NCBI GenBank assembly: GCA_016934575.1
Contig: JAFGSN010000107.1
Span: forward strand, 1-63,471
Reading direction: 5' to 3'
Origin: Vicinamibacteria bacterium
GTDB taxonomy: Bacteria; Acidobacteriota; Vicinamibacteria; Fen-336
DNA length: 63,471 bases
The translations under genes were made by a program, and so were the position numbers. Position 1 is the first letter of the stretch. Each line of letters begins with the position of its first letter. Positions 38,098 to 59,673 of this stretch are shown in pieces. Under the pieces are notes generated by a model. It made no database searches and was not told the DNA's origin. It worked only from the letters and a program-made list of their open reading frames with translations.

Positions 38098-39330
38098 TCA
38101 CGTCGCGAGACGTTCCAGTCGTTCGGCGGCCTCGATGCACATGCGGCCGTTGTGGTACGGACATTTCCACTCGGAGATTTTGGGCTGATTCGGATCCGGC
38201 GCGCCGTCACGCGACACGCGCCAGAACCATTCGCCGTGACGCCGGTCTATGATGCGATTCTCGATGAAACGCCATGAAGCCAGGGCGGCCTCGAAGAAGC
38301 GCGTCTCTTTCGACAGCTCGAAAGCATTGAGGAATCCGACCACCGCTTCCGCCTGCGGCCACCAGTGCTTGTCGCTGTCCTTGACGCCCCGCGAACTGGC
38401 CGCATAGAACAGACCGCCGTCCGCGTCCCGGCCTTCGCGCCAGACGGCATCGGCCATGGCCAGGGCCTGCTCGCGTACGCGATCGAGCAGCCGCGGATTG
38501 CCGATGACCTCGGCCGCTTCGCAGAGAAGCCAGCTTCCCTCGATGTCGTGACCAAACGAAATGTGGTCGGACTTCACGGTCCATGCTTCGTCGAAGAAGA
38601 GCCGGAATTGACGCCCTCGCGGATCAAGGATGTGTCGCATGAAGAGGTCGATCAGGGCCGTCAAGCGCGCGCGGAGCCGCGTGTCCGGCCAGACACGCAG
38701 AAGGTTCGTATAAGCTTCCATGACGTGCAGGTGCGTGTTCATGGATTTCTTCTCGTTGAGGTCGTCGTCGCTCAGGCGCAAATCCTCGGCCGGTTGCCAG
38801 TCGCGTTCAAAGGTCTCGAGATAACCGTCGTGATCCACGTCGCGGGCGTGCGCCTCGACGAGCTCGAAAACCTCCCGCGCCCGACAAAGCGCCTTCTCCG
38901 AGCCCGTGGCGCGGTGATACTCCGATAACGCGTATACAAGAAAGGCCTGTCCGTAGATCTTCTTCTTCATATCACGCGGTTGTCCGTCGGGATCGAGCAG
39001 CCAGAATGCGCCCCCGTGTTCGACGTCCCAGAAGCGCTCTTCAATATAATCGTATGCGCGTCGCGCGATTGCGAGGCAAGACTCGTCGCCGAGATGCAGG
39101 TAGAACGCCGCGAACGACCAGAGCAACCGCGCGTTCAGAATGAGACCCTTGGAGGCCGCTTGATCGACCTTCAGGTCGTTGCTCATTTGGCCGATGAAGC
39201 CGCCGCGCTCGGCGTCCGGACCATGCGTGCGCCAGAAAGGGATGATGTCGTTCCGCAGCTCTTCCATGAGCGCGCGGGAGAGTTTCCGCCGTGTCGTGCC
39301 GTTCTTCGTTTGAGACTCTTCTCCGCGCAT
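38098..39330 (-). CDS. cellobiose 2-epimerase (AGE superfamily)
   Basis: The 410-residue enzyme has the full cellobiose 2-epimerase signature: KGLILNARLLWSF (60-73), KKIYGQAFLVYALSEY, LNEKKSMNTHLHVMEAYTNL (191-210), SFGHDIEGSWLLCEAAEV (258-275), HWWPQAEAVVGFLNAF and SEWKCPYHNGRM. Candidate catalytic histidines are His200, His261 and His393, spacing close to the characterised enzymes. It epimerises the reducing-end glucose of cellobiose to mannose, and converts mannobiose to mannosyl-glucose. ATG 39330 is one base from the GH94 stop (TGA-G-ATG); the longer frame upstream is out-of-frame sequence of that gene. It provides the substrate for the GH130 enzyme at 48708. No signal peptide, so cytosolic. 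Confidence 0.95.
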   Translation of the reverse strand: MRGEESQTKNGTTRRKLSRALMEELRNDIIPFWRTHGPDAERGGFIGQMSNDLKVDQAASKGLILNARLLWSFAAFYLHLGDESCLAIARRAYDYIEERFWDVEHGGAFWLLDPDGQPRDMKKKIYGQAFLVYALSEYHRATGSEKALCRAREVFELVEAHARDVDHDGYLETFERDWQPAEDLRLSDDDLNEKKSMNTHLHVMEAYTNLLRVWPDTRLRARLTALIDLFMRHILDPRGRQFRLFFDEAWTVKSDHISFGHDIEGSWLLCEAAEVIGNPRLLDRVREQALAMADAVWREGRDADGGLFYAASSRGVKDSDKHWWPQAEAVVGFLNAFELSKETRFFEAALASWRFIENRIIDRRHGEWFWRVSRDGAPDPNQPKISEWKCPYHNGRMCIEAAERLERLAT

Positions 39331-39331
39331 C

Positions 39332-41728
39332 TCAGCCCATCTCGACGGCGACATCGTTGACGTCCCGCAATCGTTCGGCGGGGATGAAGTCATGGGGTAT
39401 CTGCTCGCCGTTGAGCTCGATCCGCCGAACGCCTCGCGACACTTTCTTTTCGTTGCGCACAAGAATGCGCAGGACTTTCCCGCGGAAGCGTCGCTCGATG
39501 CGCAACAGATCCCATGCCTTGGGTATGCAGGGGTCAATCCGCAAGCCGTCGTATTCAGGCCGGATTCCCAGGATGTATTGAGTGACGGCGTGGTAGGTCC
39601 ACGCGGCCGAGCCGCTGAGCCAGGGGATGCGCGAGGCGCCGTGTTTGGGGCTGGCCTTGCCATGCGTCGACTGACAAACGACGTATGGCTCAATCTCGCG
39701 AATCTCGGCCTTCGTGTTGTACGCGGCCGGAAGATAGGCGCGCAAATAGCGATAAGCCTCATCGCCGTTTCCTAGAACGGCTTCGGCCATGACCGCCCAT
39801 CCTTGCGTGTGGATGAAGACGCCGCCGTTTTCCTTGAGCCCGGGATTGAAGAGCGCGGCGCGCACGATGTTGTAATCGGTTTTGGTGAACGGCGGGTCGC
39901 ATAGAGCCAGGCCATAGTCGGAGGCCAGGCGTTCACGGACGCGGCGCATCGCGATTCGCGCCTGTTCCGGTTTGGCGGCTCCGCTCAGGACGGCCCATGT
40001 CTGTGGATTCAAGAAAATCTGTCCTTCGGGGCATTCCCTGGATCCGAACTTCATTCCGTCATGACGATATCCACGGAGGAACCACTCGCCGTCCCATGCG
40101 TGTTTTTGCAGGTTGTCGTCCAGCCGAGACAGCGTTGCCCGGCCCCAGGCCGATTCGCCAGCTTGGTCCAATCGTTCGGCCACCTCTACGTAGACGGCCA
40201 GCGCGAGACGAAGTTGCATGGCCACGAAAACCGACTCTCCGTCATGGCCGAAACGCAGGCAGTCGTTCCAGTCGGCGTGCAACCCGCACGGCAGGCCGTG
40301 CGCGCCCAGGCGATCGAGATTGAACTGGATGGCGCGTCTCAAGTGACCGAAAACCGTGTCTTCGCCCCTGTCCGCATAGGGTAGGATCTTTTCGAAGAAA
40401 GCGATGTCGCCCGTCTCCTTGACGTATGCCGGAACGGCGTTGAAAAGCCAAAGCGCGTCGTCAGAACGATAGTCTTCTTCCCTGGGAGCGGCCTCGTGCC
40501 CCGGTCGATGGCTGAACGGGAGCACGACCGGCAACGCCCCGCCGGTCGACGCCTGACCCGTGATCATCAGCTCCAAACGCTCGCGAGCCTCGTCGGGGAT
40601 GGCGTGCACCACACCCAGGATGTCCTGCGCCGTGTCGCGATAGCCGAGCCCGTCTCGATCGATGCCCGAGTAGATGAGGCTGGCCGCGCGGGACCAGGTG
40701 TAAGTCATCAGGCAGTTGTAGATCCCCCAGGCGTTGATGGTGCTGTTCAGCTCGGCGTCGGGGGTGTGAGCCGAGAATCCCTGGAGACGCGCGTGCCAAT
40801 GGTCTCTCAGTCGCGCAAGCTCGCGATCGGCCCGACGCACGTCGGCGTACTCCGCGATCGCTTGCCGGCCCTCCCGATCCGCGCCGCCGACGCCGACGAG
40901 CACGAGAAACTCGCGCGTTGCCTGCGCGTCGATCGACAGCTCCACCTGCAGGCAACCGCACGGATTGTCGCCCCAGGCCAGAGAGTTCGAACACTCTCCG
41001 CGCTCGACCGTAACGGGATTGGCATACGTGCGATAAGGCCCGAGAAACGCCTCGCGATCCGTGTCGTATCCGGTGACCCGGGCTCCCGCCACGCCTTGGA
41101 AAGTGTGACGTCCCTGATCCTTCTCCTTGAAGTTGTCGGGCATCGCGGGGATGTTGACGTTGGTGCCGTGGTCGATGATCCCGTCCACTACTTTCATCTG
41201 CGTTGTGTATTGCACGTACTGGATGTTGAGCAGGTCGTCGATGGCGTTCCAGTTGCCGGCATATTCCAGATAAGTGAAACCGCTCAGACGGCGTCTTCGT
41301 CCGGATCGGTTCGTCAGTCGGATCTTCCACACCTCGAATAGGCGATCGAGCGGCACGAAATAGGTGATCTCCGCGTCGATGCCGTCATATGCGGAAGAGA
41401 TGCTGGTGTATGCCGTGCCATGACGACAGACAGAACGAAATCGATCCAGCGGTTTGCCCACGGGTTGCCAGGAAACGGACCAATAATCCCCGGAATCGTG
41501 ATCGTGGAGGTACAGGTAGCGGCCCGGTTGATCCATGGGGATCGAGTTGAAGCGCAGGCGAATGAAGCGACCCATCCCTCCGGACCTGTAAAAGCCGTAA
41601 CCGCCGGCGTTGTTCGTGATGATGGCGCCGTATTCGGTGGAGCCTAGATAGTTGCTCCAGGATTTGGGCGTGTCGGGGCGGGTAATGACGTACTCATGCC
41701 GCTCGTCGTCGAAGTGACCGTATTGCAT
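39332..41728 (-). CDS. GH94 disaccharide phosphorylase, chitobiose/cellobionate phosphorylase-like
   Basis: The 798-residue protein opens with QYGHFDDERHEYVITRPDTP and has GDYWSVSWQPVGKPLDRF, GLGYRDTAQDILGVVHAIP and the catalytic block CGLHADWNDCLRFG with the GH94 acid Asp in DWND. These segments recall N,N'-diacetylchitobiose phosphorylase and cellobionic acid phosphorylase more than cellobiose phosphorylase. Such enzymes invert the linkage and give an alpha-hexose-1-phosphate. A cytosolic enzyme of normal GH94 length (about 800). It is one base upstream of the epimerase in the same operon and has its own promoter at 41758-41786. Exact substrate is open. Confidence 0.9.
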   Translation of the reverse strand: MQYGHFDDERHEYVITRPDTPKSWSNYLGSTEYGAIITNNAGGYGFYRSGGMGRFIRLRFNSIPMDQPGRYLYLHDHDSGDYWSVSWQPVGKPLDRFRSVCRHGTAYTSISSAYDGIDAEITYFVPLDRLFEVWKIRLTNRSGRRRRLSGFTYLEYAGNWNAIDDLLNIQYVQYTTQMKVVDGIIDHGTNVNIPAMPDNFKEKDQGRHTFQGVAGARVTGYDTDREAFLGPYRTYANPVTVERGECSNSLAWGDNPCGCLQVELSIDAQATREFLVLVGVGGADREGRQAIAEYADVRRADRELARLRDHWHARLQGFSAHTPDAELNSTINAWGIYNCLMTYTWSRAASLIYSGIDRDGLGYRDTAQDILGVVHAIPDEARERLELMITGQASTGGALPVVLPFSHRPGHEAAPREEDYRSDDALWLFNAVPAYVKETGDIAFFEKILPYADRGEDTVFGHLRRAIQFNLDRLGAHGLPCGLHADWNDCLRFGHDGESVFVAMQLRLALAVYVEVAERLDQAGESAWGRATLSRLDDNLQKHAWDGEWFLRGYRHDGMKFGSRECPEGQIFLNPQTWAVLSGAAKPEQARIAMRRVRERLASDYGLALCDPPFTKTDYNIVRAALFNPGLKENGGVFIHTQGWAVMAEAVLGNGDEAYRYLRAYLPAAYNTKAEIREIEPYVVCQSTHGKASPKHGASRIPWLSGSAAWTYHAVTQYILGIRPEYDGLRIDPCIPKAWDLLRIERRFRGKVLRILVRNEKKVSRGVRRIELNGEQIPHDFIPAERLRDVNDVAVEMG

Positions 41729-41757: not shown

Positions 41758-41786
41758 ACGATATTCCGTGGATCGTCTTTCGTCAA
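41758..41786 (-). promoter_or_regulatory. promoter for the GH94-epimerase operon
   Basis: On the minus strand TTGACG (41786-41781) and TATCGT (41763-41758) are separated by exactly 17 bases. The -10 box lies 30 bases before the GH94 ATG at 41728. This is the best sigma70-type element in the 162-base gap after the ROK gene and lets the phosphorylase and epimerase be transcribed separately. Confidence 0.55.
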
Positions 41787-41890: not shown

Positions 41891-42991
41891 TTACTCGAGC
41901 GACGCCAATGCGAAGGAGTAGGCGCCGATGGAAATGGCCCGGCTCGTTCCAAGGCGGGAGACTCCGACTCCGATGCGTTGCAGCGGATCGTACGACACTT
42001 TCCGGCTTGTGCCGGGAACGGCAATCTCGCGCGTCTCGCCACGAAGGAAGCGCCGTAGATCGGCCGGGTCCTCGAGATTGAAGGTTTTCGTTTCGAGGCG
42101 AGGCGTCTGACCGCCCTGGGGATTGATGAACGGCGTGTTCATCTCTTGAACGAGAGCCGGCAGGAAGAGCGGATGTGCGCCGCTCAGTCCCCCGCCGATG
42201 ACGATGAGCCCGTCGATGAGAGCGACGGCGTTGGCCAGAGCGTCGCCAGCGACCTCGCCCAGACGGCGAAAGGCCTCGATTGCCGCTGAACGCTGTCCGG
42301 CGACCTCGCCTGTTCCGATTTGATAAATCTCACGAGGCTCCGGCGCGTTTCCCATGGCGATGCCGGCCTTGGCGGCGAAAACGCGGCGTACGGCTCGGAT
42401 GCTGACGCCTTCCTCGACGTTCGTTTCACGTTCGATCTTGTGGCGCGCCACCCAGATTTCGGCGCCGGCGGAGTTGTCGCCGAGAAAGAGCTTGCCGTTG
42501 TGCACGATGCCGCCGCCGAAGCCCGTGCCGAAGGTGACGCCCAGAAGATTGGCGAAGCGTTTTGGGCTTCCCGCTTGAGCAAGACGCGCGTTGATCTCCG
42601 GAAGGAGGCCGGCGATGGCTTCGCCCAAGGCAAAGAGATCGCCGTCGTTGTTGATGAAAGCGGGCAACTGGAAACAGTCCGTGAGCATCGGTCCCAGGGC
42701 CACGCCTCCGCGAAAAGCCGGGAGATTGGGGAGGTCGCCGATGATCCCGCGCGGATAATCGGCGGGTCCCGGGAAGGCGAAGCTGATGGCGACCGGAGGC
42801 TCCGGAGCCCTGGCGCGGGCTTCGGCAAAACCTCGCACGATGTTATCGAGACAGGCCTGAAGCTTGTCGCCGTACGTGGGCAAGGTGATCGGATCGACGA
42901 CTTCTTGGCCGCCCTGGATGGCCGAGAAGACGAGATTGGTGCCGCCGGCATCGAGCGTCAGCACGCAGCGAGCGTCGTTTGCCGGATCCAT
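41891..42991 (-). CDS. ROK-family hexokinase-like protein without zinc motif
   Basis: The 366-residue protein has the ROK phosphate-binding motif LDAGGTNLVFSA and the sugar/catalytic segment FINNDGDLFALGEA, and GTGFGGGIVHNGKL. The CxCGxxGCxE zinc site of most ROK kinases is missing; the region reads NSAGAEIWVARHKI. It should phosphorylate glucose or mannose released by the phosphorylases to hexose-6-phosphate. It follows the permease by one base (TGA-A-ATG), so they are co-expressed. The lack of a DNA-binding HTH means it is a kinase, not a NagC-type repressor. No signal peptide. Confidence 0.85.
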   Translation of the reverse strand: MDPANDARCVLTLDAGGTNLVFSAIQGGQEVVDPITLPTYGDKLQACLDNIVRGFAEARARAPEPPVAISFAFPGPADYPRGIIGDLPNLPAFRGGVALGPMLTDCFQLPAFINNDGDLFALGEAIAGLLPEINARLAQAGSPKRFANLLGVTFGTGFGGGIVHNGKLFLGDNSAGAEIWVARHKIERETNVEEGVSIRAVRRVFAAKAGIAMGNAPEPREIYQIGTGEVAGQRSAAIEAFRRLGEVAGDALANAVALIDGLIVIGGGLSGAHPLFLPALVQEMNTPFINPQGGQTPRLETKTFNLEDPADLRRFLRGETREIAVPGTSRKVSYDPLQRIGVGVSRLGTSRAISIGAYSFALASLE

Positions 42992-42992
42992 T

Positions 42993-44135
42993 TCAGGCGT
43001 CCTGTCGTCCGCCGTCTCTAGTCAGCGAAAGGACCATGAGATATCCGAACGATAAAAGCGGCACGATGAACGCGATTCTTAAACCGGCCGTATCGACCAG
43101 CCAGCCCATGACCGGCGGCAGGATCGCGCCTCCGAAGATCGCCATGCACATGAGCCCCGACAGCTCGGCGCTACGTTCGGGAGCTTTCTCAACGGTGAGG
43201 GAGAAGAGCACCGGCCAGATGTTCGCGAAGCCCAGTCCACAGCAGACCACGCCGGCGATGGCGAGTTGCGGGATCCCCGCGAGCAGCATCAAGAGACCGA
43301 TGATTCCGAGACCGGAGCTGATGCGGAAGAGGGATCGCGGCGAGAGGACCCGCAGCATGGCCCCTCCCAGTAGACGGCCCGCGGTCAATCCGGCAAAGAA
43401 TAGCGTGGGACCCATGAAGCCCGACGGACCGTCTTCGAACCCAACGCCCTTGAGGTGAGGTTTCAACCAGGTGCTCAGGCCGACCTCGGCGCCTACATAG
43501 AGAAAGATCCCGAGAACCGCCAGACCGAAATCAGGCCGTCCGAGCAGGGAGAGACTGCTTCTCATGCTCGGCGGCTCGGCGATTCGAGTCTCCTTCACCT
43601 TGAGCAGCAGCACCGTCAGCAGGCACGCGAGCGTCAGCGCCAGAAACACGGGGAAGACGCGTCTCCAACCCGTCTCGCCCAGCGCCAGGCGCGTGACGAG
43701 AGCCGTACTGGCCACGCTTCCCGCCCCTTTCACGAATTGCGCGAAGCTGAGGTTGCTGGCAAAGCGGCCCTCGGCGCTCACGTCCCGCATGATCGGATTA
43801 CCGGCGACCTGAAGCAGCGTCGTGCCGACTCCCAGAACGAACACGGCCGCCAAAAGAAGCGCGTAACCCGGGACAGCGACGGTCGGTACGAGCACGCCGG
43901 CGGCGTTGAGCGCAAGCGCGACGAGCAGCAGGTTTCGTTTGCCGATCCTCGTCGCCAGCAATCCACCGGGCACGCTGAAGGCGGCGAAAGCGACGAACGC
44001 AAAGGCCGGCAGCAACGCGGCCATGAAGCCGGAGAGCTGATACTGCTTCTGGATGGTCGTGGCCAAAGGCCCCAGCGCATCGACGAAGCCCATGACGAAG
44101 AAACAGAAGAGAATCGGCGGTACGCGGAGCTTCAC
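42993..44135 (-). CDS. MFS sugar:proton symporter, FucP/GluP-like (FHS family)
   Basis: The 380-residue protein starts at GTG 44135, with AAGGAG eight bases upstream; an earlier start at 44225 would add 30 unlikely residues. It has about 12 membrane helices, FVMGFVDALGPLATTIQKQYQ in helix 1, the loop FSVPGGLLATRIGKR after helix 2, and QVAGNPIMRDVSAEGR, all typical of FHS (FucP/GluP) permeases. These import sugars with protons. It would supply mannose, glucose or small oligosaccharides to the locus. It is in a run with the GH130 gene upstream and ROK downstream. Confidence 0.88.
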   Translation of the reverse strand: MKLRVPPILFCFFVMGFVDALGPLATTIQKQYQLSGFMAALLPAFAFVAFAAFSVPGGLLATRIGKRNLLLVALALNAAGVLVPTVAVPGYALLLAAVFVLGVGTTLLQVAGNPIMRDVSAEGRFASNLSFAQFVKGAGSVASTALVTRLALGETGWRRVFPVFLALTLACLLTVLLLKVKETRIAEPPSMRSSLSLLGRPDFGLAVLGIFLYVGAEVGLSTWLKPHLKGVGFEDGPSGFMGPTLFFAGLTAGRLLGGAMLRVLSPRSLFRISSGLGIIGLLMLLAGIPQLAIAGVVCCGLGFANIWPVLFSLTVEKAPERSAELSGLMCMAIFGGAILPPVMGWLVDTAGLRIAFIVPLLSFGYLMVLSLTRDGGRQDA

Positions 44136-44221
44136 GGGTCGCGCTCCTTTGAAGGCGGGAGACTCATTCCTGATCGCATCCGAATATTGGCGCAGAATAG
44201 TCCTGCGATGATACCGCCAAG

Positions 44222-45214
44222 TCAATGGACGTCCTCATGATGTTTCTTGATGAAGTCGATGACTTCATCCACCCTGCAGAACGCGAGAGCCGTGAAAGTG
44301 TCGGCGGCGCCGTAGTATATGGCGATCCGTCCGCTGGGCGCGTCATAGAGATTCTGACAGGGAAAGACGACGTTCGGCACGTAACCGCTCGTTTCGTAAT
44401 CCTTCTCCGGCGTGAGCAAATAATCGCCGCCGCGGTAGAGCACCTTGTGCGGCTCCTCGAGATCGAGCAACGCGGCGCCGAAACTGTAGACGAAGCCGTT
44501 ACAGGTGCCGGATACTCCGTGATAGAAAAGCAGCCACCCGTCCTTCGTTTCGATGGGAGTCGGTCCGGCGCCGATCTTCGTGCCCTGCCACCATCCTCGA
44601 CCGCCCCGGCCCATCACGAATCTGTGTTTTCCCCAGTGGATGAGATCGGGGCTTTCGCTCACGAAGACGTCTCCGAACGGCGTATGTCCGCTGTCGCTGG
44701 GCCGGCTCAGAAGCTTATAGGTGTTCTTGATCTTGCGCGGAAACAGCACGCCGTTGCGATTGAACGGCAGGAGCGGGTTGGGTAAACGAATCCACGTTCG
44801 GAAGTCCTTCGTTTTTCCGAGGCCGATAGAGGCGCCGCGCATGTCGTCGCACCATACGACGTAGTGCCAGTCGTCGATCTTGACGAAGCGCGGGTCATAG
44901 GCGTAACTCACGGGGCATGGCGCGCCGGTCTCGTCCTGCCAGGGGAGGATCTTGTCTTCGATCCGAAAGTTGATACCGTCCTTGCTGGCGCCGAAGTGCA
45001 GATTGGCTCGGCCGTTTCTGTGGTCGGCGCGGAAGACCCCAACGAATTCGCCTTGATATGGCAGGACGGCGCTGTTGAAGACTCGTGCCGTTGAGGGGCT
45101 CGGATTCCATCCGATGATTGGATTTCGGCTATAGCGCCAGACGATTTGGTCACTGTCCGCGGGTCTTTCTTCCCAAGGAAGATTCTGTAAAGGCTCTCCG
45201 ACGATGGTGGTCAT
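44222..45214 (-). CDS. GH130 phosphorylase, mannooligosaccharide / Man-GlcNAc type (GH130_2)
   Basis: The 330-residue protein has the compact GH130_2 layout. Signature segments are STARVFNSAVLPYQGEFVGV, YAYDPRFVKI with the likely acid Asp107, RPSDSGHTPFGDVFVSESP and GWLLFYHGVSGTCNGFVYSF, and the terminal PNVVFPC and IYYGAADT. Characterised relatives are beta-1,4-mannooligosaccharide phosphorylase and beta-1,4-mannosyl-N-acetylglucosamine phosphorylase, both releasing alpha-mannose-1-phosphate. Given the epimerase and mannosylglucose phosphorylase in the same locus, mannooligosaccharides are the better guess. It heads the operon with permease and ROK kinase, and has a perfect TATAAT upstream. 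Confidence 0.92.
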   Translation of the reverse strand: MTTIVGEPLQNLPWEERPADSDQIVWRYSRNPIIGWNPSPSTARVFNSAVLPYQGEFVGVFRADHRNGRANLHFGASKDGINFRIEDKILPWQDETGAPCPVSYAYDPRFVKIDDWHYVVWCDDMRGASIGLGKTKDFRTWIRLPNPLLPFNRNGVLFPRKIKNTYKLLSRPSDSGHTPFGDVFVSESPDLIHWGKHRFVMGRGGRGWWQGTKIGAGPTPIETKDGWLLFYHGVSGTCNGFVYSFGAALLDLEEPHKVLYRGGDYLLTPEKDYETSGYVPNVVFPCQNLYDAPSGRIAIYYGAADTFTALAFCRVDEVIDFIKKHHEDVH

Positions 45215-45384: not shown

Positions 45385-46188
45385 ATGCGACTTTTAGAGA
45401 TGGTGAATCACATGATGCTCTATAGCCCGACCCACAGAGCGTTTCTCTCGTGCAATCGGCGCGTCAAACTCGCCGGCCTGGCGTTCGTGCTGGCCCTGGC
45501 GCCCGCGTCGCCGGGGCATGCGGTTGCGGGTGAGAATTCCTCCCTGGTTTGTGCGGCGCGCCGGGGTAGGACCGATGAAGTGCTGTCTCTGCTGCGTGCC
45601 GGCGCCGACGTGGATTCTCGCGATACGCAGGGTCGAACCGCGTTGTTACGCGCCACGACCGCCGGGCGCCGGGATGTCGTGAAAATCCTCATCAGCGCCG
45701 AGGCTGACGTCGACGCGGCCGATCGCAACGGCCTCACGCCCCTGTTCGAGGCGGTCCGACTCGGTCATATCGAAGCGGCAAGAGATCTGCTCGAAGCCGG
45801 CGCCGATCCGGACCCGCGTTATCGCGAGATCGGCACGCCCCTGGACGTCGCCGAGCGGCAAGGCGATCGGGATCTGTCGGCGCTCTTACGGTCTCACGGC
45901 GCGCGAGGCTCGGGCAAATCGACCGGCGATGTTGTCTGCGTGCGACCGTGGGATGGAGAGGGCTATTGCGGCACGGTGACGGCCGTCGAGATATCGCATT
46001 GGATGTTGCGAGTGACGAAAATCGTCGGCTGCCTGAAGGGATGCACGCCCGGCGATTGCTCGATGGGCCGTCCGGTCGGCGGAGACCAGGCGGACAGAGT
46101 GCGTATTGGCGACGAAGTGCGCGTGGAAGGCGCCTGTCTCACGCATACGGGTCTGGGCTCCGAAGAACAGCGGACGAGACAGCCATGA
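45385..46188 (+). CDS. exported ankyrin-repeat protein with Cys-rich tail
   Basis: Residues about 20-47 look like a signal peptide (KLAGLAFVLALAPASPGHAV), and the mature protein has about four ankyrin repeats (LVCAARRGRTDEVLSLLRAG; GRTALLRATTAGRRDVVKIL; GLTPLFEAVRLGHIEAARDL) up to about residue 170. The last 90 residues carry several Cys (VGCLKGCTPGDC) and are not recognised. The start may be ATG 45385 or 45400; the second lies closer to the signal sequence. Its stop overlaps the ATG of the GH113 lipoprotein (ATGA), so the two are co-translated and probably co-function outside the cytoplasm. Confidence 0.8.
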   Translation: MRLLEMVNHMMLYSPTHRAFLSCNRRVKLAGLAFVLALAPASPGHAVAGENSSLVCAARRGRTDEVLSLLRAGADVDSRDTQGRTALLRATTAGRRDVVKILISAEADVDAADRNGLTPLFEAVRLGHIEAARDLLEAGADPDPRYREIGTPLDVAERQGDRDLSALLRSHGARGSGKSTGDVVCVRPWDGEGYCGTVTAVEISHWMLRVTKIVGCLKGCTPGDCSMGRPVGGDQADRVRIGDEVRVEGACLTHTGLGSEEQRTRQP

Positions 46189-47294
46189 AGCGAACAAGGC
46201 ATGGTTTACGTCGCATGCACGGACACGCGTGGACCGGCGCGCTTGGCATCTTCGTCACGCTCTCCGTCGGATGTGGCGGCGGCGGCGACTCCGCGCCCTC
46301 GCCGACGCCCGAGCCCGCGCCGAGCCTGTCGGGAGTCTTCGAATACGAAGGAATCACTCATGTTTCCTGGTGGTTCGATGAGTACCAGGGAGCGGCAGGG
46401 GCGAGCTCGCGCCAGGCGCTGGACGCGACCGGCGCCAACTGGGCCGGCCTTCTCTTGACCTGGTACATGGATGATCGCAATGCCACGGCAATACGTCCCG
46501 ACGCCCAGCGAACGCCCAGTGACAGCGCGGTCGTTGAAGCCATCCGGAGCTTTCATGGCCTGGGTCTCAAGGTCATGCTCAAGCCGCATGTCGATTCCAA
46601 AGATGGAACCTGGCGCGGCAGCGTGCGCCCTCCGGACGCCGACGCCTGGTTCGCGAGTTATTCCGCGTTTATCGCCGACATGGCGCGCCTCGCGGACGCG
46701 GAAGGCGTCGAGATGCTCTGCGTGGGCACGGAGCTCGCGCGCTTATCGGGCACGGATCTCAGGCGTCAATGGGCGGACCTCATCGCGGCTGTGCGGGCTA
46801 CATATCACGGCCCGATCACTTATGCCGCGAACGCGAACTCGGCGGCCGACGAGTTCACGAGCATCGACTTCTGGGACCTCGTCGATTTCGCCGGCCTCGA
46901 CGTGTACGTTCCGCTCACGAATCGTGACGATCCCTCTCCGGCGGACCTGATCGCCGGCTGGACGCGGAATCGCAACGGCGACAACATGCTGGCGGCATAT
47001 CGCAACTGGCAACGGAGCCACGGCAAGCCGGTCATCTTCACGGAGATCGGCTATCGCAGCGCGAACGGAACGAATCGCGCTCCCTGGGAATTCAGCACAA
47101 CGTTGTCGTACGACGGCGTCGAGCAGGCCGACTGCTACCGCGCCGCCTTTACGGTGTGGCTTAACGAGCGCTCCTGGATGAAGGGCGTCTTCTGGTGGAG
47201 CTGGGACGTGCCGGCGCCGGCGCCGAACGACACGAGTTACACGCCGCGCACCAAACCCGCCGGCGATTTTCTGCGCGAACGCTACTCCAGTTGA
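46185..47294 (+). CDS. GH113-like beta-mannanase, lipoprotein
   Basis: The 369-residue protein has a lipoprotein signal with lipobox LSVGC at 26-30 (Cys30), followed by Gly-rich and Pro-rich residues. The catalytic TIM barrel begins at EGITHVSWWFDEY, with GLKVMLKPHVDSKDGTWRG (127-145) near the active site. The acid/base is Glu183 in CVGTELARLSG and the nucleophile Glu287 in VIFTEIGYRSANG, as in GH113 endo-beta-1,4-mannanases. Residue +2 is Gly, so sorting to the outer membrane is expected. It would cut mannan or glucomannan outside the cell to feed the cytosolic phosphorylases. Assignment rests on remembered family motifs; a related endo-glycosidase is possible. Confidence 0.82.
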   Translation: MKRTRHGLRRMHGHAWTGALGIFVTLSVGCGGGGDSAPSPTPEPAPSLSGVFEYEGITHVSWWFDEYQGAAGASSRQALDATGANWAGLLLTWYMDDRNATAIRPDAQRTPSDSAVVEAIRSFHGLGLKVMLKPHVDSKDGTWRGSVRPPDADAWFASYSAFIADMARLADAEGVEMLCVGTELARLSGTDLRRQWADLIAAVRATYHGPITYAANANSAADEFTSIDFWDLVDFAGLDVYVPLTNRDDPSPADLIAGWTRNRNGDNMLAAYRNWQRSHGKPVIFTEIGYRSANGTNRAPWEFSTTLSYDGVEQADCYRAAFTVWLNERSWMKGVFWWSWDVPAPAPNDTSYTPRTKPAGDFLRERYSS

Positions 47295-48658: not shown

Positions 48659-48707
48659 TATCATGAATCTCACGGGCGCCGGCTTTGAACAGGAGGAGAC
48701 AACACCG

Positions 48708-49958
48708 ATGGCCAATGTGAGGTTTGAATCCGTGTTGCGACGAAAAATTGCGGCGCACCGCGGGCTCATCGCCCGTAAAAACACGAAAATCGCTTTGAGC
48801 AACGGCGTCTTCGAACGCTATCGATACCCGGTGTTGACGGCGGAGCACACGCCGCTCGAGTGGCGTTACGACCTCGATCCCGCCGCCAATCCTTTCTGCA
48901 TGGAGCGCCTGGGCGTCAACTCCGCCTTCAATGTCGGCGCGATCGAGTGGAATGGACGTTTCGTTCTCGTCGCGCGCGTCGAAGGCTTGGACCGCAAGTC
49001 GTTCTTCGCCGTGGCCGAGAGCAAGACCGGCGTCGACGGGTTTCGCTTCTGGCCGCGACCCGTGCTCTTGCCACAGACGGAAAATCCGGACGTGAACGTC
49101 TACGACATGCGCCTGACACGGCATGCGGACGGCTGGATCTACGGTCTGTTCTGCGTCGAACGGAAGGATGAAAGCGCCCCTCCCGGAGACGCCTCAATAG
49201 CCGTCGCCGCTTGCGGGATCGCGCGTACCCGGGACCTCGTCGCATGGGAGCGGTTGCCCGACCTTTCTTCGGATTCGCCGCAGCAACGCAACGTCGTGCT
49301 CCATCCCGAATTCGTTCACGGCAAGTACGCTTTATACACACGTCCGCAGGACGGCTTCATCGAGGCCGGCAAGGGCGGCGGCATCGGCTGGGCGCTCTGC
49401 GACGACATCACGCGCGCCGTCATTCACGAAGAGACGATCGTCGATCCCAAGGTCTATCACACGATCATGGAATCGAAGAACGGCCTGGGTCCGCCCCCGA
49501 TCAAGACCGGCGCGGGCTGGCTTCATCTCGCCCACGGCGTGCGCGGAACGGCGGCCGGATTGCGGTACGTCCTGTACGCCTTTCTCTGTGATCTCGATGC
49601 GCCGTGGCGAGTGATACGCCGTCCCGGGGGATATTTGATGGCGCCCGAGGGCGAGGAACGCGTCGGCGACGTCTCGAACGTTCTTTTCTGCAATGGTTGG
49701 ATCCTGCGAAATAACGGCGACTTGTTCATCTATTACTGCAGCTCGGACACGCGCGCTCATGTCGCGACGACCACAGTCGATCGATTGCTTGACTACGTGC
49801 GCAACACGCCCGAGGACCCGCTTCGATCGCAGGCCTGCGTGGAGCAGCGACTCCAGTTGATCGAGAAGAATCTCGCGTTTCGCGGGAAGGTCAAGCGCCA
49901 AGCCTACTGCGGAATGCGCAGGCGACCCGGCTTCGCCAAAGATCGATGCGCGAGCTGA
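48708..49958 (+). CDS. 4-O-beta-D-mannosyl-D-glucose phosphorylase (GH130_1)
   Basis: The 416-residue enzyme matches the characterised mannosylglucose phosphorylases: [57 protein letters not shown] with the acid Asp133, [37 protein letters not shown] and SNVLFCNGW with [15 protein letters not shown]. It reversibly phosphorolyses Man-beta-1,4-Glc to alpha-mannose-1-phosphate and glucose. ATG 48708 was chosen because AGGAGGAG lies ten bases upstream; an earlier ATG at 48663 is in frame. Its partner is the epimerase at 38098-39330, 9.4 kb away on the other strand. The LacI gene overlaps its end by 13 bases. Confidence 0.95.
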
Positions 49959-50956
49959 AGCGGCAATGCACGATCCATGACATCGCGCGCCGGGCGGGAG
50001 TCTCGCCCAGCACCGTCTCGCGCGTTCTCAACCAGACCTCCCCTGTCCGGCCCGAAAAGCGTCGCTCCGTGATCGAGGCCGTTGAGGCGCTCAAATATCG
50101 GCCAAGCATCGTGGCGCAGGGACTGGCGCGCGGGCGCTCGCCCGCCGTGGGCGTGCTCGTCCAGGACATCAGCAGTCCGTTTTACAGCCGGATTCTTTTG
50201 GGCATCGAGGGACGCCTGGTCGGAACGGGCCTGTATCCGATCTTCGCCAGCGGCGTCGAGAAGCGGCAAACCGCACAGGCATTGCAGCTTCTCAACGACA
50301 ATCGTGTCGGATCAATGATCGTCGTCGGCGGCCGGATGTTTGACGCGGACATCATCCGGATGTCAGCGCGCATGCCGGTGGTCGTCGTCGGTCGCGCCAT
50401 CGCGGGAATGGAGGAGCGCTGCTTGCGTGTCGAGAACATCGAGGGAGGTTGTCGCGCGACGCGTCATCTGCTCGATCTGGGACACAGACGCATCGCGCAT
50501 CTGACGGGCGTTCACAATCATCCCGACGCCATCGATCGACGTGAGGGCTATGCGCGCGCGCTTTCCGAGCGGGGCATCGACGTGGATCCGGCGCTCATCG
50601 TTACCGGAGATTTCGAGGAGATTTCCGGCCTGCGCGGCGTCGAAGCGCTCGTGAGCGACGGCGTCGGCTTCAGCGCGATATTCGCCGGCAACGATCAGAT
50701 GGCATATGGAGCCCAGCTTGCCTTGCACCGGCACGGCTTGCGCGTGCCGCAGGACGTCTCGCTCGTCGGATTCGACGATCTGCCCCACTCCACCTTCACC
50801 GTTCCGGCCTTGACGACCATCCGCCAGCCGACAATCGCGATTGGCGCCGCCGCGGTCGACGCCTTGATCGGCTTGTTGCAGGGACAACCGCTTTGCCTGC
50901 CGGTTTTTCCCACCGAACTTGTCGTTCGCGATTCAACCGCGCCCTTTTTCGGCTGA
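49946..50956 (+). CDS. LacI-family transcriptional regulator
   Basis: The 336-residue protein has an N-terminal LacI HTH ([20 protein letters not shown] and [11 protein letters not shown] with the hinge [12 protein letters not shown]), then a periplasmic-binding-like sugar domain ([40 protein letters not shown]). It should bind a palindromic operator and be released by a sugar inducer, probably a manno- or cello-disaccharide. It overlaps the phosphorylase gene by 13 bases, so it is co-transcribed. Candidate operators are TGAAAGCGTTTTCA at 57121-57134 and possibly the repeat at 48643-48658. Confidence 0.95.
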
Positions 50957-53100: not shown

Positions 53101-54498
53101 ATGCGTGAGAAAGATGAGCGACTTATGAGTGAAAGTCCGTCGGGCAAGATCAAGATCGCGGAGAAGATCGGATACGCCGTGGGAGACACGGCATCGTGCC
53201 TCTATTTCCAGACGATGCAGATGTTCCTCATGTATTTCTACACGGACACGTTCGGCATCTCGGCCGCCGCGGTCGGCACGATGCTGTTGGTCACTCGGAT
53301 TTGGGACACCGCCAACGATCCTCTCATGGGCATGATCGCCGACCGCACGAGCACGCGTTTCGGCAAGTTCCGTCCCTGGATTCTCTGGATGATCGCCCCC
53401 TACGCCATCGTCGGCGTGCTGACGTTCGTGACGCCGAATCTCAGCCTGGCCGGAAAACTGATCTACGCCTATATCACCTACGCCTTGCTGACCATGGCGT
53501 ACACCGCGATCAACATTCCGTACGGCGCGTTGCTCGGCGTCATGACGGCCAACGGCGATGAGCGCACGCAGCTTTCCAGCTTTCGTTTTCTCGGCGCTTT
53601 CAGCGGTAACCTGATCGTCCAGGGCACGCTGATTCTCCTCGTCGAAAAGCTCGGCCGCGGCAATGACCAGTTGGGTTACCCGTTGGCCATCGGCGTCTTT
53701 GCTCTCGTCGCGTCCGGTCTCTGGTTCTTCACGTTCTCATCGACGAAAGAGCGTATTCAACCGCCCAGGAATCAGAAAACGAGCGTATCGCGGGATCTGA
53801 ACGATCTTCTGCATAACCGTCCCTGGTTGGTTCTGTGTCTGATGGGCGTTCTCACGCTTGTCTGGGTCTCGCTGCGAAACGGCGCCATGATGTATTACTT
53901 CGACTACTACGTCGGCGACCGGAGCAAGGCCGCGATTTTCATGGTCGCCGGAACGATCTGCAGCCTCATCGGCGTCTCGTTGACGACGTTCGTGACGAGG
54001 GCGCTTGGAGGAAAGAAGAAAGCGTTCATCATTCTCTCGGCCGCCAATGCGGCCCTGACCGCCGTCTTTTTCATCGCCCGACCGACGGATTTCGTGTTGA
54101 TGTACGCCTCGCATCTTGTCGGATCATTGAGCAGCGGTCCGCTGATGCCCTTGACCTGGTCGATGTACGCGGACACGGCCGACTACGGCGAATGGAAGTT
54201 CGGCCGGCGCGCGACGGGGCTGGTCTTCTCCGCGGCCACTTTCAGTCAGAAGATGGGATGGACGATCGGCGGCGCGGCGGCCGGTTGGGTGCTGGCCTTT
54301 TTCCAGTATCAACCCAACATGCCGCAGACCGAGTTCACGCTGGTCGGCATTCGCCTCATGATGAGCATCCTGCCGGCCATTGGGAGCTCGCTGGTATGCG
54401 TCGCGGCCTTGTTCTACAACTTGACCGAGAAAAATCTCGAACAAATCGAGACGGATCTGGCGTCACGACGTCGCGCTGCGGCGGCGTCCAGTCAATAA
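53101..54498 (+). CDS. GPH-family sugar:cation symporter (MelB-like MFS)
   Basis: The 465-residue protein has 12 membrane helices and matches the glycoside-pentoside-hexuronide (GPH) family: IAEKIGYAVGDTASCLYFQ, WDTANDPLMGMIADRTSTRFGK split over the helix 2-3 loop, and TWSMYADTADYGEWKFGRR. These import disaccharides or hexosides with Na+ or H+. It is the third permease of the locus. The start is ATG 53101, with ATG 53125 as an alternative. A short repeat-like run starts right after the stop. It fits uptake of mannobiose, cellobiose or related products. Confidence 0.93.
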   Translation: MREKDERLMSESPSGKIKIAEKIGYAVGDTASCLYFQTMQMFLMYFYTDTFGISAAAVGTMLLVTRIWDTANDPLMGMIADRTSTRFGKFRPWILWMIAPYAIVGVLTFVTPNLSLAGKLIYAYITYALLTMAYTAINIPYGALLGVMTANGDERTQLSSFRFLGAFSGNLIVQGTLILLVEKLGRGNDQLGYPLAIGVFALVASGLWFFTFSSTKERIQPPRNQKTSVSRDLNDLLHNRPWLVLCLMGVLTLVWVSLRNGAMMYYFDYYVGDRSKAAIFMVAGTICSLIGVSLTTFVTRALGGKKKAFIILSAANAALTAVFFIARPTDFVLMYASHLVGSLSSGPLMPLTWSMYADTADYGEWKFGRRATGLVFSAATFSQKMGWTIGGAAAGWVLAFFQYQPNMPQTEFTLVGIRLMMSILPAIGSSLVCVAALFYNLTEKNLEQIETDLASRRRAAAASSQ

Positions 54499-54592: not shown

Positions 54593-57004
54593 TCATCCCA
54601 GCTCGACGTCGACTTCGTGCTCGGCGTCCTTTTCGAACGCCGGAACGACGTTTCCTTCGAGCCAGTTCCCGTCGATTCGAAGCGCGCGGACGCCACGGCA
54701 TACGTGGGACGGATTTCGGATCGTGATGCGGTACGTGGCGCCGCGAAAAACGCGTTTGACCTTGAAGCCGTCCCAGGCCGAGGGAATGCATGGATCCACG
54801 CGCAGGCCGCCATGCTCGGGTCGCACGCCAAGGATGTGTTGGGTTCCCGCGACGTACATCCAGGCGGCCGTGCCGGTGAGCCAGCTATTGCGCGCCAGCC
54901 CGAACTGCGGGTGCTCGTCGCCGGCGACGTTCTGGCAATAAACGAAGGGTTCGCACTGGTATTCGTCGATACGTTCGTTTTTGGCCGCTGGATTGATCTG
55001 GCGGTAATACTCATATGCCCGCTCGCCGTTTCCCAGGATCGTCTCGGCGATGATCGCCCAGGGGTTGGCGTGCAGGAAAATACCGCAGTTCTCCTTGGCG
55101 CCCGGCGGAAAAGTGGTGATGCCGCCCTTGCGCGGATCGTAGCCGTTGAATCCTGGCGTGCTGAGCTTGATGCCCTTGGGCGTGTTCAATCTTCCGTAGA
55201 CGGCCGCCATTGAAACGCGCGCGCGCTCGGGCGTGGCAAAGCCCGAAATCACCGGCCAAGACTGTCCGTTGACGTAGATCTGGCTTTGGTTGTTGCTATG
55301 CGAGCCGAGAGGCGTCCCTTCGGCGTCGAAGTAGCGGACGTACCATTCGCCGTCCCAGGCGTGCTTGTTGACGGACGCGCGCATGCTTTCGTAGCTTGCC
55401 TGCAAAAGCTCCGCGGTCGCGTCATCGCCGCGATATCGGCATAGGGAGATCAGCTCGCAGAGCGCCTTGCCGTAGAGGTTGGCGGTGAAGAGCGATTCGG
55501 CGCCGGCCGGCAGATTCGTCGGGTCGTTCCAGTCGGCAAAGCCGAGAAGCGGCAGCCCGTGCGCGCCGACGTCGCCCCTCGTGAAGTGGATGGCGCGGGA
55601 GAGATGATCGATCACGGTTCCGGACTCGAGCGGGCGGCCATCCCGGTCTTTCTCGTAGTATGGGATCGTCTCCTCGAGGAATGCGAAATCGCCGGTCTCC
55701 TTGAGATACGCGCAGACCGCCAGCACGCTCCAGAGATGGTCGTCGCTGTAGTACTGCGGTCGATTGGGGATGTCGGCCGCGTCGCCCACCGACGCCTCGA
55801 GGCTCAACGGATTGAACTGGTGCATGGCCGAGCCGTTGCGCTTCTGGACGGCGAGCAGTTTCTTGAGGAGCTCCTTGGCTCGCTCGGGCGCGCTCGGGAG
55901 CACGCCCAGAACATCCTGCGAGCTGTCGCGAAAGCCGATGCCGCGCGAGCCGTAACCGGGCTGATAGATCGAGAGGTAACGCGACCAGTTGAGCGTGATG
56001 AAGCACTGGCGCGGATTGTGAACGTTGAGCATGTGGTCGAGGTCGGGATCCGGGGTGGTTGCGTTCTGTTTCTCGAGATAATCGTCCCAGAAGCGGCCGA
56101 TTTCTTGAAACGCCTGATCGGCGCGCGCGGGATTCCAGTAATCACGGATGCCGGCGATCCCATTCCGAATGCTCTCGCATTGGCCGAGTTGCGTCACGAC
56201 GCGGCGGTTTTCGCCGGGTGACAGAGTCCCGAGGCGGAGCATCAAGGCTCCGACGTTGTCGCCGCGGCGCGCTTCGTTGTCGCCCAGCTCCGGCGCGCCG
56301 AGGGAGAGCGGGGCCGCCCATGTGCCGTATTCGTTGTCTCCCAAGAATCGCGGTCGTTCGGTCTCGAAGGAAGAGGCCGGCCAGCTTGCGGTAAGAAAAT
56401 TGACGCTCGTATCACGGTGCATGAAGGCGTATTGAGCGAGAATCTTGCGCCCGTCCTCATAGTGGTGCGCGCGGCTCTGCATTGTCTGCGGCACCCAGTC
56501 GGCGTTGGTGAACTGAAGAGTCGCGAGGAAATGACTGTACTCGACCACCGGGACAAGATCGATCTCCCGCGGATGATCGGCGAGGTTCGTCAGGCGTATG
56601 TCGTGAATCAGGCGCTCGTCGTCGACCGGGACGAAGACCGTGATCTCGGAGCGGATCCCGTGAAATTCCGTGATCCAGCGCGAAAAGCCGAGGCCAACGT
56701 GGCATTCGAAGCGATCATAGGGATCGAGCGTCGGCACGAAAAAGGGCGAGAAGACGCGATAGCCGTCGTTTTGCTTCATGCGTACGTAGAGCGTCGAACC
56801 CCGAAACTCGGAGGCGGGAAGAATGCCGATGTAGCGTGTGATGCGGTTTGTCGCGGGATCGCCCTTGCAGATCATGGCGCCGCCCGTGTGATCGACGAAG
56901 CCGCCGAAGGCCAACGTGCCCACATAGTTGATCCACTTCACCGGAGTGCGCGGGTTGGTGATCACGTACTCCTTGTGCGCGTCGTCGAAGTGACCGTAGA
57001 TCAT
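54593..57004 (-). CDS. GH94 phosphorylase, divergent subgroup
   Basis: The 803-residue protein starts at ATG 57004 with AAGGAG ten bases upstream; ATG 57013 is too close to that site. It has the family opening IYGHFDDAHKEYVITNPRTP, GIGFRDSSQDVLGVLPSAPE and the catalytic LLGFADWNDPTNLP. The DWND acid is intact, but the residues that follow (PTN instead of CLN) differ from those of cellobiose and chitobiose phosphorylases, so acceptor specificity probably differs. The subgroup was not identified; laminaribiose or cello-type substrates are possibilities. It is divergent from the cellobiose phosphorylase at 57247, with the operator-like palindrome between them. Cytosolic. Confidence 0.88.
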   Translation of the reverse strand: MIYGHFDDAHKEYVITNPRTPVKWINYVGTLAFGGFVDHTGGAMICKGDPATNRITRYIGILPASEFRGSTLYVRMKQNDGYRVFSPFFVPTLDPYDRFECHVGLGFSRWITEFHGIRSEITVFVPVDDERLIHDIRLTNLADHPREIDLVPVVEYSHFLATLQFTNADWVPQTMQSRAHHYEDGRKILAQYAFMHRDTSVNFLTASWPASSFETERPRFLGDNEYGTWAAPLSLGAPELGDNEARRGDNVGALMLRLGTLSPGENRRVVTQLGQCESIRNGIAGIRDYWNPARADQAFQEIGRFWDDYLEKQNATTPDPDLDHMLNVHNPRQCFITLNWSRYLSIYQPGYGSRGIGFRDSSQDVLGVLPSAPERAKELLKKLLAVQKRNGSAMHQFNPLSLEASVGDAADIPNRPQYYSDDHLWSVLAVCAYLKETGDFAFLEETIPYYEKDRDGRPLESGTVIDHLSRAIHFTRGDVGAHGLPLLGFADWNDPTNLPAGAESLFTANLYGKALCELISLCRYRGDDATAELLQASYESMRASVNKHAWDGEWYVRYFDAEGTPLGSHSNNQSQIYVNGQSWPVISGFATPERARVSMAAVYGRLNTPKGIKLSTPGFNGYDPRKGGITTFPPGAKENCGIFLHANPWAIIAETILGNGERAYEYYRQINPAAKNERIDEYQCEPFVYCQNVAGDEHPQFGLARNSWLTGTAAWMYVAGTQHILGVRPEHGGLRVDPCIPSAWDGFKVKRVFRGATYRITIRNPSHVCRGVRALRIDGNWLEGNVVPAFEKDAEHEVDVELG

Positions 57005-57090
57005 CGCTCTCATGCTCCTTGCGGTTCTTTTAAGGCGCTCTCGCCCGGAAATGATGTCATGCATGCGGCGTATGAATTCATCACGCGAGT

Positions 57091-57134: not shown

Positions 57135-57246
57135 GCGCAGTTTCACGGGATTCGTCCGGCGATAAACGGGGACGCGCGCGGCGAAGCGCGTCTTGATCGT
57201 GATAATCTTCACGGACGTTCGTCGCACGAACAGGAGGAGCGCGAAC

Positions 57247-59673
57247 ATGCGATTTGGACGGTTCGACGATGAGATGCGCGAATACGTGATCACGACGCCG
57301 ATGACGCCGTATCCGTGGATCAATTATCTCGGCTGCGAGAGATTTTTCTCGCTGATCTCGCATCTTGCGGGCGGATACTGTTTCCATCAGGATGCGCGCC
57401 TGCGCCGAATCACGCGCTATCGCTATAACAACGTCCCGATCGACGCCGGAGGGCGCTACTTCTACATCCGTGAAGGCGATGATTTCTGGAATCCGAGCTT
57501 CATGCCCGCCAAGCGCGCGCTGGATCGGTTCGAGTGCCGTCATGGTCTGGGATACACGAAGATCGTCGGGCGACGATCGGATCTCGAGGCCGAATCGCTT
57601 TTTCTGGTGCCACTGGGCGTCGACGCTGAGGTGCAGCGCCTGCGGTTGCGCAACCTCGCGCGCCGGCCGCGGGAGCTGCGCGTTTTTTCATTCGTCGAGT
57701 TCTGTCTGTGGAACGCCTATGACGACATGACGAATTTCCAGCGTAACTTTTCGACCGGCGAGGTCGAGGTCGAAGGCCGCGTCATTTATCACAAGACCGA
57801 GTATCGCGAGCGCCGAGATCACTATGCGTTCTACGGCGTGAACGCCGACCTGGAGGGTTTCGACACCGATCGGGAGTCGTTTTTGGGCATGTACAACGGT
57901 TTTCACGAGCCGGAGGCCGTCATTGAAGGCCGCGCGCGCAACTCGATCGCCAGCGGTTGGGCGCCGATCGGCTCGCACTGTGTCTCGTTGCGCCTGGAGC
58001 CGGGCGAGGAGCGGACGTTCGTCTTCGTCCTGGGCTACGTGGAGAATCCGCCGGACGGCAAATGGGAACGGCCGGGCGTGATCGAAAAAGAGCCGGCGCG
58101 CCGCGTCCTGGCGCGCTTCGCCGACTGCGCGCGGGTCGATCAGGCGATGGCGGATCTCCGCGCCTATTGGGACGAACTGCTCTCGGTCTATCGCGTCGAG
58201 TCGCCCGATGAACGTCTGGACCGCATGGTGAACGCCTGGAATCCCTATCAGTGCATGGTCACGTTCAATATCTCGCGCAGCGCCTCGTATTTCGAGAGCG
58301 GCATCGGGCGCGGCATGGGATTTCGCGACTCGAACCAGGATTTGCTCGGTTTCGTTCACCTCGTGCCCGCGCGTGCGAGGGAGAGAATTCTCGACATCGC
58401 GGCCACTCAATTCCCGGACGGAAGCGCCTATCACCAGTATCAGCCGCTCACGAAGCGCGGCAACAACGAGGTCGGCTCCGGTTTCAACGACGACCCGCTG
58501 TGGCTGATCCAGGGCGTTGCGGCCTACGTCAAGGAGACCGGCGACTTCGAGATCTTGAGGGCGGAGGTTCCGTTCGACAACGACCCGGCGAACGTCGCCA
58601 CGCTGTTCGAGCACCTCAAGCGCTCCTTCATGCATGTGCCGAGAAACCTCGGTCCGCACGGCCTGCCGCTCATCGGACGCGCCGACTGGAACGATTGCCT
58701 GAATCTCAACTGCTTTTCCGAGACTCCCGACGAGTCCTATCAGACGACCGCGAACCGCGAAGGCCGAACGGCCGAGTCGGTTTTCATCGCCGGATTGTTT
58801 CTGTTCGTGACGCCGGATTACGTCGCGTTGGCCGAGCGTCTGGGCTTTTCGGACGAAGCCCAGGCGGCTCGCGATCACGCGCAACGCATGCGCGCGGCGT
58901 TGATCACGCACGGCTGGGACGGCGAGTGGTTTTTGCGCGCCTACGACTTCTTCGGTCGCAAGGTCGGCAGTCGCGAGAACGACGAGGGGCAGATCTTCAT
59001 CGAGCCGCAGGGTTATTGCGTCATGGCCGGCGTGGGCGTCGATGATGGACGCGCACGAAAAGCGTTGGACTCGGTCAAGCGGCGTCTCGATACGCCCTGG
59101 GGAATCGTGGTGCACAATCCGGCGTACACCAAGTATCGCGTCGAGCTCGGCGAGATCTCCTCATATCCGCCGGGTTACAAGGAGAATGCCGGGGTGTTCT
59201 GCCACAACAATCCATGGATCATGATCGCGGAGACCATGATCGGACGCGGGGATCGCGCTTTCGAGTACTACAAGAAGATCACGCCGTCATATCTGGAAGA
59301 CATGAGCGAGATCCATCGCACCGAGCCTTATGCTTATTCGCAGATGATCGCAGGCAAGGACGCGGCGCGCAAGGGTGAGGCCAAGAACTCGTGGCTCACC
59401 GGAACCGCGGCCTGGAACTTCGTCGCCATCACGCAGTACATGCTCGGCGTTCGTCCGGAGCTGGATGGTTTGCGGGTGGAGCCGCGTATCGATCGGGAGA
59501 TCGCCGAATTCACCGTCACGCGCAAGTGTCGTGGCGCCGTTTATCGCATACGCGTGAAGAACGGCGGCGGCGCCGGTCCGGCACGCCTTCAGGTGAACGG
59601 CCGTCCGATATCGGGCACTCTGGTCCCGTACGCATCCCCAGGAGAGACGATCGAGATCGATTGCGAGGCTTGA
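57247..59673 (+). CDS. cellobiose phosphorylase (GH94)
   Basis: The 808-residue enzyme agrees with characterised cellobiose phosphorylases over its length: [112 protein letters not shown] and [18 protein letters not shown] with the catalytic Asp483. It converts cellobiose and phosphate to alpha-glucose-1-phosphate and glucose. ATG 57247 has AGGAGGAG about seven bases upstream; a start at 57193 would add 18 residues. It is divergent to the other GH94 gene and its stop is 20 bases before the chorismatase-like gene. Cytosolic. Confidence 0.97.

Follow-up and report, generated by a model that had tools for sequence, protein, structure and literature searches.

The closest characterised relative of the phosphorylase described here is BpGH94MLG from Blautia producta (PDB 8BOU), a GH94 enzyme that phosphorolyses cellotriose and G4G3G but not cellobiose (PMC10318527). 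This structure was deposited as "N,N'-diacetylchitobiose phosphorylase" and published as a beta-glucan phosphorylase, and the deposited name sits both on glucan-active enzymes and on members of the clade studied here (plasmid records L086 and L087); such automatic annotation is misleading, since 8BOU is biochemically a glucan phosphorylase. In cellobiose phosphorylase (CBP), the loop 495-509 blocks the +2 and +3 subsites, Arg166 stands where CDP has an aromatic residue, and E649G is among the changes that let the enzyme accept cellobiose (PMC7471185). In CtCDP, Tyr804, Glu810 and Cys625 bind the +1 sugar at its O2, mannotriose is not an acceptor and no manno-acceptors are taken (PMC5667895). 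The position of Val631 in chitobiose phosphorylase has been called crucial for chitobiose (PMC10318527). A GH94 enzyme described as using a non-glucose acceptor is the glucosylgalactose phosphorylase GGalP of P. polymyxa (AHC20114.1; PMC8950772).

The mannan pathway of F. prausnitzii comprises GH113, an epimerase, GH130_2 and GH130_1, and GH3 beta-glucosidases have been proposed to cut off the terminal glucose of gluco-mannooligosaccharides (PMC8262883). The window (the whole stretch of 63,471 nucleotides of Vicinamibacteria DNA that we analysed) contains the same four enzyme types as the pathway of F. prausnitzii, R. intestinalis and R. albus (PMC8262883), but differs from it in having a GH94 gene, here called GH94x, in the GH130_2 gene run; in the known pathway, terminal glucose is left to GH3 beta-glucosidases.

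Gene content of the locus

GH94x (39332..41728, minus strand) encodes a phosphorylase of 798 amino acids in a frame that the ORF listing shows to be intact from ATG to TGA. The Pfam scores of its GH94 catalytic domain (464 bits) and GH94 supersandwich domain (250 bits) each lie well above the cut-off, and it belongs to GH94 also by its catalytic Asp in the motif ADWND and its phosphate-site His640. Asp489 is the predicted general acid, and the phosphate-site equivalents are His640, Gln686 and Ser705-Gly706. Among PDB entries, 8BOU was the best match (751 bits); the chitobiose phosphorylase of Vibrio proteolyticus (VpChBP, 1V7V) scored 479-548 bits and SdCBAP (4ZLE) 221 bits. Identities were 44% to 8BOU, 39% to VpChBP, 37% to CtCBP and 22% to cellobionic acid phosphorylase (CBAP). 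An AlphaFold2 model (mean pLDDT 89.2) had 8BOU as its top Foldseek hit (TM 0.95), ahead of chitobiose and cellobiose phosphorylases, and CBAP at TM 0.85. The cellobionate phosphorylase likeness put forward in a sequence-only reading of this DNA found little support (221 bits for 4ZLE vs 751 for 8BOU). That reading had also pointed to an N-terminal block resembling chitobiose phosphorylase. The resemblance is real: the block GDYWSVSWQPVGK (residues 80-92) corresponds to GDYWSISWQPVAK in the V. proteolyticus enzyme, and to GDFWSPGWSPVKR in C. thermocellum cellobiose phosphorylase. It is not diagnostic, however, as the glucan phosphorylase 8BOU has it too (KDFWSASWQPVGK).

The gene lies immediately before that of a cellobiose/mannobiose 2-epimerase (CE; 38098..39330, minus strand; 410 amino acids), as the same reading had noted: the GH94x stop codon (39334-39332) and the CE start codon (ATG, 39330-39328) are separated by exactly one base, and both genes are intact. 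CE matches the Rhodothermus marinus enzyme (RmCE) with 440-445 bits and keeps all three catalytic histidines, equivalent to RmCE His200, His259 and His390, the roles of the last two having been described (PMC5726027). On the other side, 162 bp upstream of GH94x, lies a ROK-family sugar kinase (41891..42991, minus strand), one base from an MFS sugar transporter gene (42993..44225, minus strand), which in turn overlaps by 4 bp the gene heading the run, a TM1225-like GH130 beta-1,4-mannooligosaccharide phosphorylase of the GH130_2 type (MOP; 44222..45214, minus strand). One sigma-70-like promoter match, TTGACG-17-TATCGT (41758..41786, minus strand; a consensus match only), lies in the 162-base gap between ROK and GH94x, so that GH94x and CE may have a transcript of their own, separate from that of GH130-MFS-ROK, and either one or two transcripts are possible.

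The plus strand carries a GH113 beta-mannanase with a probable lipoprotein signal (45948..47294; the listed start is probably too early, the true one being nearer 46200), a BF0772-like GH130 4-O-beta-mannosylglucose phosphorylase (MGP; 48663..49958; 567 bits), a LacI-family regulator (49946..50956), an SSS transporter, a GPH-family symporter (53101..54498) and a true CBP (57193..59673; 1305 bits to CtCBP). Judged from its gene content, the window carries a complete mannan route (GH113, MOP, MGP and epimerase) plus CBP. The presence of this separate CBP gene agrees with the earlier view that GH94x is not a plain cellobiose phosphorylase. Between the GPH symporter and CBP genes, and divergently oriented to the latter, lies a second, divergent GH94 gene (GH94b; 54593..57064, minus strand), uncharacterised and 36% identical to GH94x. 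GH94b shares only ~36-41% identity with any sequence compared, the nearest being the same-family sequence L091, and has Trp/Gly/Phe at the acceptor positions. The genome's fourth GH94 (L004; G000:C197:28856-30127) is part of a 2760-aa frame whose length recalls cyclic beta-1,2-glucan synthase.

Phylogenetic position

In a GH94 tree of 78 rows with SH-aLRT supports, GH94x fell within a large clade of 40 rows (support 97), the GH94x clade, which has no characterised member and spans Acidobacteriota, Bacteroidota, Balneolota, Verrucomicrobiota, Chloroflexota, Lentisphaerota and other phyla. Its sister is a Bacillota clade containing 8BOU (support 100); GH94x is not inside the latter and therefore lies outside the BpGH94MLG-type clade. 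VpChBP branches outside both clades (support 99) on a long branch, and the CBPs form a separate clade (support 100) that does not include GH94x. Phylogeny, which the sequence-only reading had named as a check, thus places GH94x in no characterised clade. Within the phylum of the window, GH94x was found in only one other of ~300 sampled genomes (72% identity; locus L007), and it has most likely been patchily inherited.

Several genomes carry GH94x in tandem or twice (L006, L032, G352 and G570), suggesting paralogues with different acceptors. Two candidate links to characterised enzymes were discarded: the GH94 of a Paenibacillus polymyxa plasmid (L088) was not adopted as the published GGalP, as it groups with CBP, and L032:5726 was dropped as a route to CBAP, CBP being its closest relative.

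Catalytic loop and acceptor site

The loop between Asp489 and Glu498 has 8 residues in all 40 members of the GH94x clade and in all 17 of the 8BOU clade, compared with 26-27 in CBP. The CBPs of C. thermocellum and C. gilvus (3QDE and 2CQS) share with GH94x the fold, the catalytic Asp and the phosphate His, but GH94x lacks their 18-residue loop insert and has Tyr171 for Arg166, Arg623 for Glu649 and Phe627 for Tyr653; clade, loop and residues together exclude a CBP identity. Tyr171 lies at the +2 position where an aromatic residue sets CDP apart from CBP, and it is conserved as Tyr in 39 clade members and as Phe in the remaining one. At the position of CBP Glu649, Arg or Lys is found in 34/40 members and is almost clade-specific. 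The position of CBP Tyr653 and CtCDP Tyr804 is Phe, Met or Leu in 36/40, but Phe also occurs there in 14/17 members of the 8BOU clade, which weakened Phe627 as a mark of mannose. The two clades differ in Arg/Lys623 vs Leu, His640 vs Gln and Ser/Thr687 vs Phe; the clade-specific part of the altered site would accordingly be Arg/Lys623 with His640 and Ser/Thr687. BpGH94MLG itself resembles GH94x in lacking the CBP loop and having Tyr at the CDP +2 position, and differs by its Leu and Gln at positions 623 and 640. VpChBP shares the short catalytic loop, but it has Val631 where GH94x has Phe627, Phe627 where GH94x has Arg623, and Met at the Tyr171 position; its locus is also different.

Because the loop is short, Tyr171 is present and Arg/Lys623 replaces Glu649, these residue patterns suggest an open, CDP-like acceptor site, fit for oligosaccharides, with a changed +1 site. 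The +1 site, whose sugar contacts the earlier reading had recommended inspecting, is predicted to be altered (Arg623 and Phe627), and the predicted openness of the acceptor site favours oligosaccharides over the disaccharide 4-O-beta-D-glucosyl-D-mannose (Glc-Man) that it had envisaged.

Genomic context across the clade

We counted GH130 genes within 10 kb of GH94x in the 38 clade loci outside the window, some of them on short contigs. MOP or MGP genes occurred within this distance in 8/38 loci, from Acidobacteriota, Bacteroidota, Balneolota and Verrucomicrobiota, against a chance expectation of 0.41 of 33 genomes (P=4e-9); the other 30 had no GH130 inside 10 kb, some contigs being short. No GH130 was found near any of 50 relatives in the 8BOU clade (0/50 vs 8/38, Fisher 8e-4), and the BpGH94MLG locus is devoted to mixed-linkage glucan, with GH16, and not to mannan. 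In five loci (L007, L011, L014, L016 and L028), MOP is the immediate same-strand neighbour of GH94x, MGP lies 5 bp downstream of it in L150, and GH130 genes are nearby in L031 and L009. Across 295 genomes of one order, GH94x was present in 3 of the 4 having the window's MOP subtype (66-68% identity) vs 5/291 others (Fisher 5e-5). All these P values are indicative only, since the loci are not phylogenetically independent.

GPH symporters recur near GH94x, with a GPH-family gene directly upstream of it in many relatives, as do acetyl esterases (L009 and L152) and GH3 (L009 and L028); L018 has a GH2 beta-mannosidase-like protein nearby, and in L153 a ROK kinase 61% identical to that of the window lies ~6 kb away. 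By contrast, the adjacency of CE, on which the Glc-Man proposal had leaned, is unique to the window: CE was present in 17/28 relatives' genomes, often paired with MGP, was not found in the other 11/28, and was beside GH94x in none of them. Epimerases in mannan loci act on mannobiose.

GH106 rhamnosidase, GH97 and GH116 genes also occur near GH94x (L151:12459-15452 and L150:14211-15998), so some clade members may act on a different glycan; given these neighbourhoods and the loci without GH130, specificity may not be uniform. A recurrent neighbour of GH94x in Bacteroidales loci is a GlcNAc 2-epimerase-like protein (PF07221) whose C-terminus carries a secretion sorting tail (L009:2493-4295, L151:2-1804 and L152:535-2397), an extracellular AGE-fold protein being unusual.

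Inferred function and alternatives

We tentatively propose, with slightly less than even confidence, that GH94x is an inverting exo-phosphorylase that takes the non-reducing-end glucose off glucomanno-oligosaccharides as the partner of a GH130 enzyme. With inorganic phosphate, it would remove beta-1,4-linked glucose from the non-reducing end of Glc-beta-1,4-Man... chains, and probably of Glc-beta-1,4-Glc... chains too, releasing alpha-glucose 1-phosphate and a chain one unit shorter. We infer in this way phosphorolysis itself, glucose at -1, tolerance of mannose at +1 and oligosaccharide length. Since the window holds the F. prausnitzii set plus a GH94 in the GH130_2 run, the simplest reading is that the terminal-glucose step would proceed here by phosphorolysis, replacing what GH3 beta-glucosidases do in the Faecalibacterium/Roseburia mannan pathway. 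This reading is consistent with a nearest characterised enzyme (8BOU) that is a beta-1,4-glucosyl oligosaccharide phosphorylase, with the short loop, Tyr171 and the altered Tyr804 position, with the GH130 association and with the CBP already present. Against it, the genome encodes 14 GH3 proteins (and no GH1) that could do the same job, and we dropped a lack of beta-glucosidases as an argument.

The main competitor is a plain cellodextrin or beta-glucan-oligosaccharide phosphorylase like BpGH94MLG, requiring glucose at +1, which would merely sit in a hemicellulose locus and handle cello-type segments of glucomannan or mixed-linkage glucan. The 44% identity to 8BOU, the loop and Tyr171 common to both enzymes and a nearby CBP able to finish cellobiose all fit this idea; we nevertheless regard it as unlikely, as the acceptor sites differ at clade level and mannoside-phosphorylase neighbours are confined to the GH94x clade. 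Somewhat less likely still is the Glc-Man phosphorylase suggested by the sequence-only reading (Glc-Man + Pi -> Glc1P + Man), a DP2 special case of the chemistry proposed above. The locus does point to substrates containing glucose and mannose, CE, encoded in the same run, converts cellobiose to Glc-Man, GH94x is not a CBP and the ROK kinase would handle the mannose, but the disaccharide is not specifically supported. The epimerase argument fails because the adjacency is not conserved in relatives. The predicted acceptor site is of the oligosaccharide type, and Glc-Man could alternatively be converted to cellobiose by CE and then cleaved by CBP. A study of S. copri suggests a CBP-like GH94 for both cellobiose and Glc-Man (PMC12704710), and we found no paper naming a Glc-Man phosphorylase in the literature searched.

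Arg/Lys623 could also serve an acceptor that is negatively charged close to C1, such as an aldonic or uronic acid, in the manner of the carboxylate-binding Arg of CBAP. SdCBAP binds the carboxylate with two basic residues, presumably Arg609 and Lys613, and the ends of the alignment, the part compared, put Arg609 at or near position 623. The prevalence of basic residues there and the GH106, GH97 and esterase genes beside some relatives would agree, but the Lys613 position is Phe/Met (Phe in GH94x), CBAP has 22% identity and TM 0.85, and no uronate or aldonate genes were seen beside GH94x in the window, where its neighbours act on neutral mannosides; we consider this improbable. Least probable is an N,N'-diacetylchitobiose phosphorylase, the name used by automatic annotation of relatives and carried by their plasmid and PDB records. 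It draws on the N-terminal block and the match to VpChBP, but this enzyme branches outside both the GH94x and the glucan-active 8BOU clades, the Val631 position is Phe, and no chitin genes were seen in the locus; we rejected this identity on the tree and residue 627.

Implications for mannan catabolism

If GH94x acts on glucomanno-oligosaccharides as proposed, GH130_2 would next take the exposed mannoses as mannose 1-phosphate, and the two enzymes, alternating, would strip a mixed chain down to a disaccharide, to be finished by the epimerase with MGP or by the epimerase with CBP. We think it somewhat more probable than not that GH94x has a specificity for which the literature searched gives no GH94 precedent, with mannose at +1 and beta-1,4-glucose taken off glucomannan oligosaccharides or Glc-Man. 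It would fill a gap in beta-mannan catabolism, namely the terminal glucose of glucomannan chains in bacteria with a phosphorolytic GH130 route: known mannan pathways give this step to a different, energy-wasting enzyme, whereas GH94x would use phosphate instead of water. Together with GH130, both sugars of glucomannan would be taken as sugar 1-phosphates, conserving the bond energy of both. Such an enzyme would also offer a new way to synthesise defined glucomanno-oligosaccharides from Glc1P, and its recognition would correct a "chitobiose phosphorylase" annotation that is spreading across several phyla.
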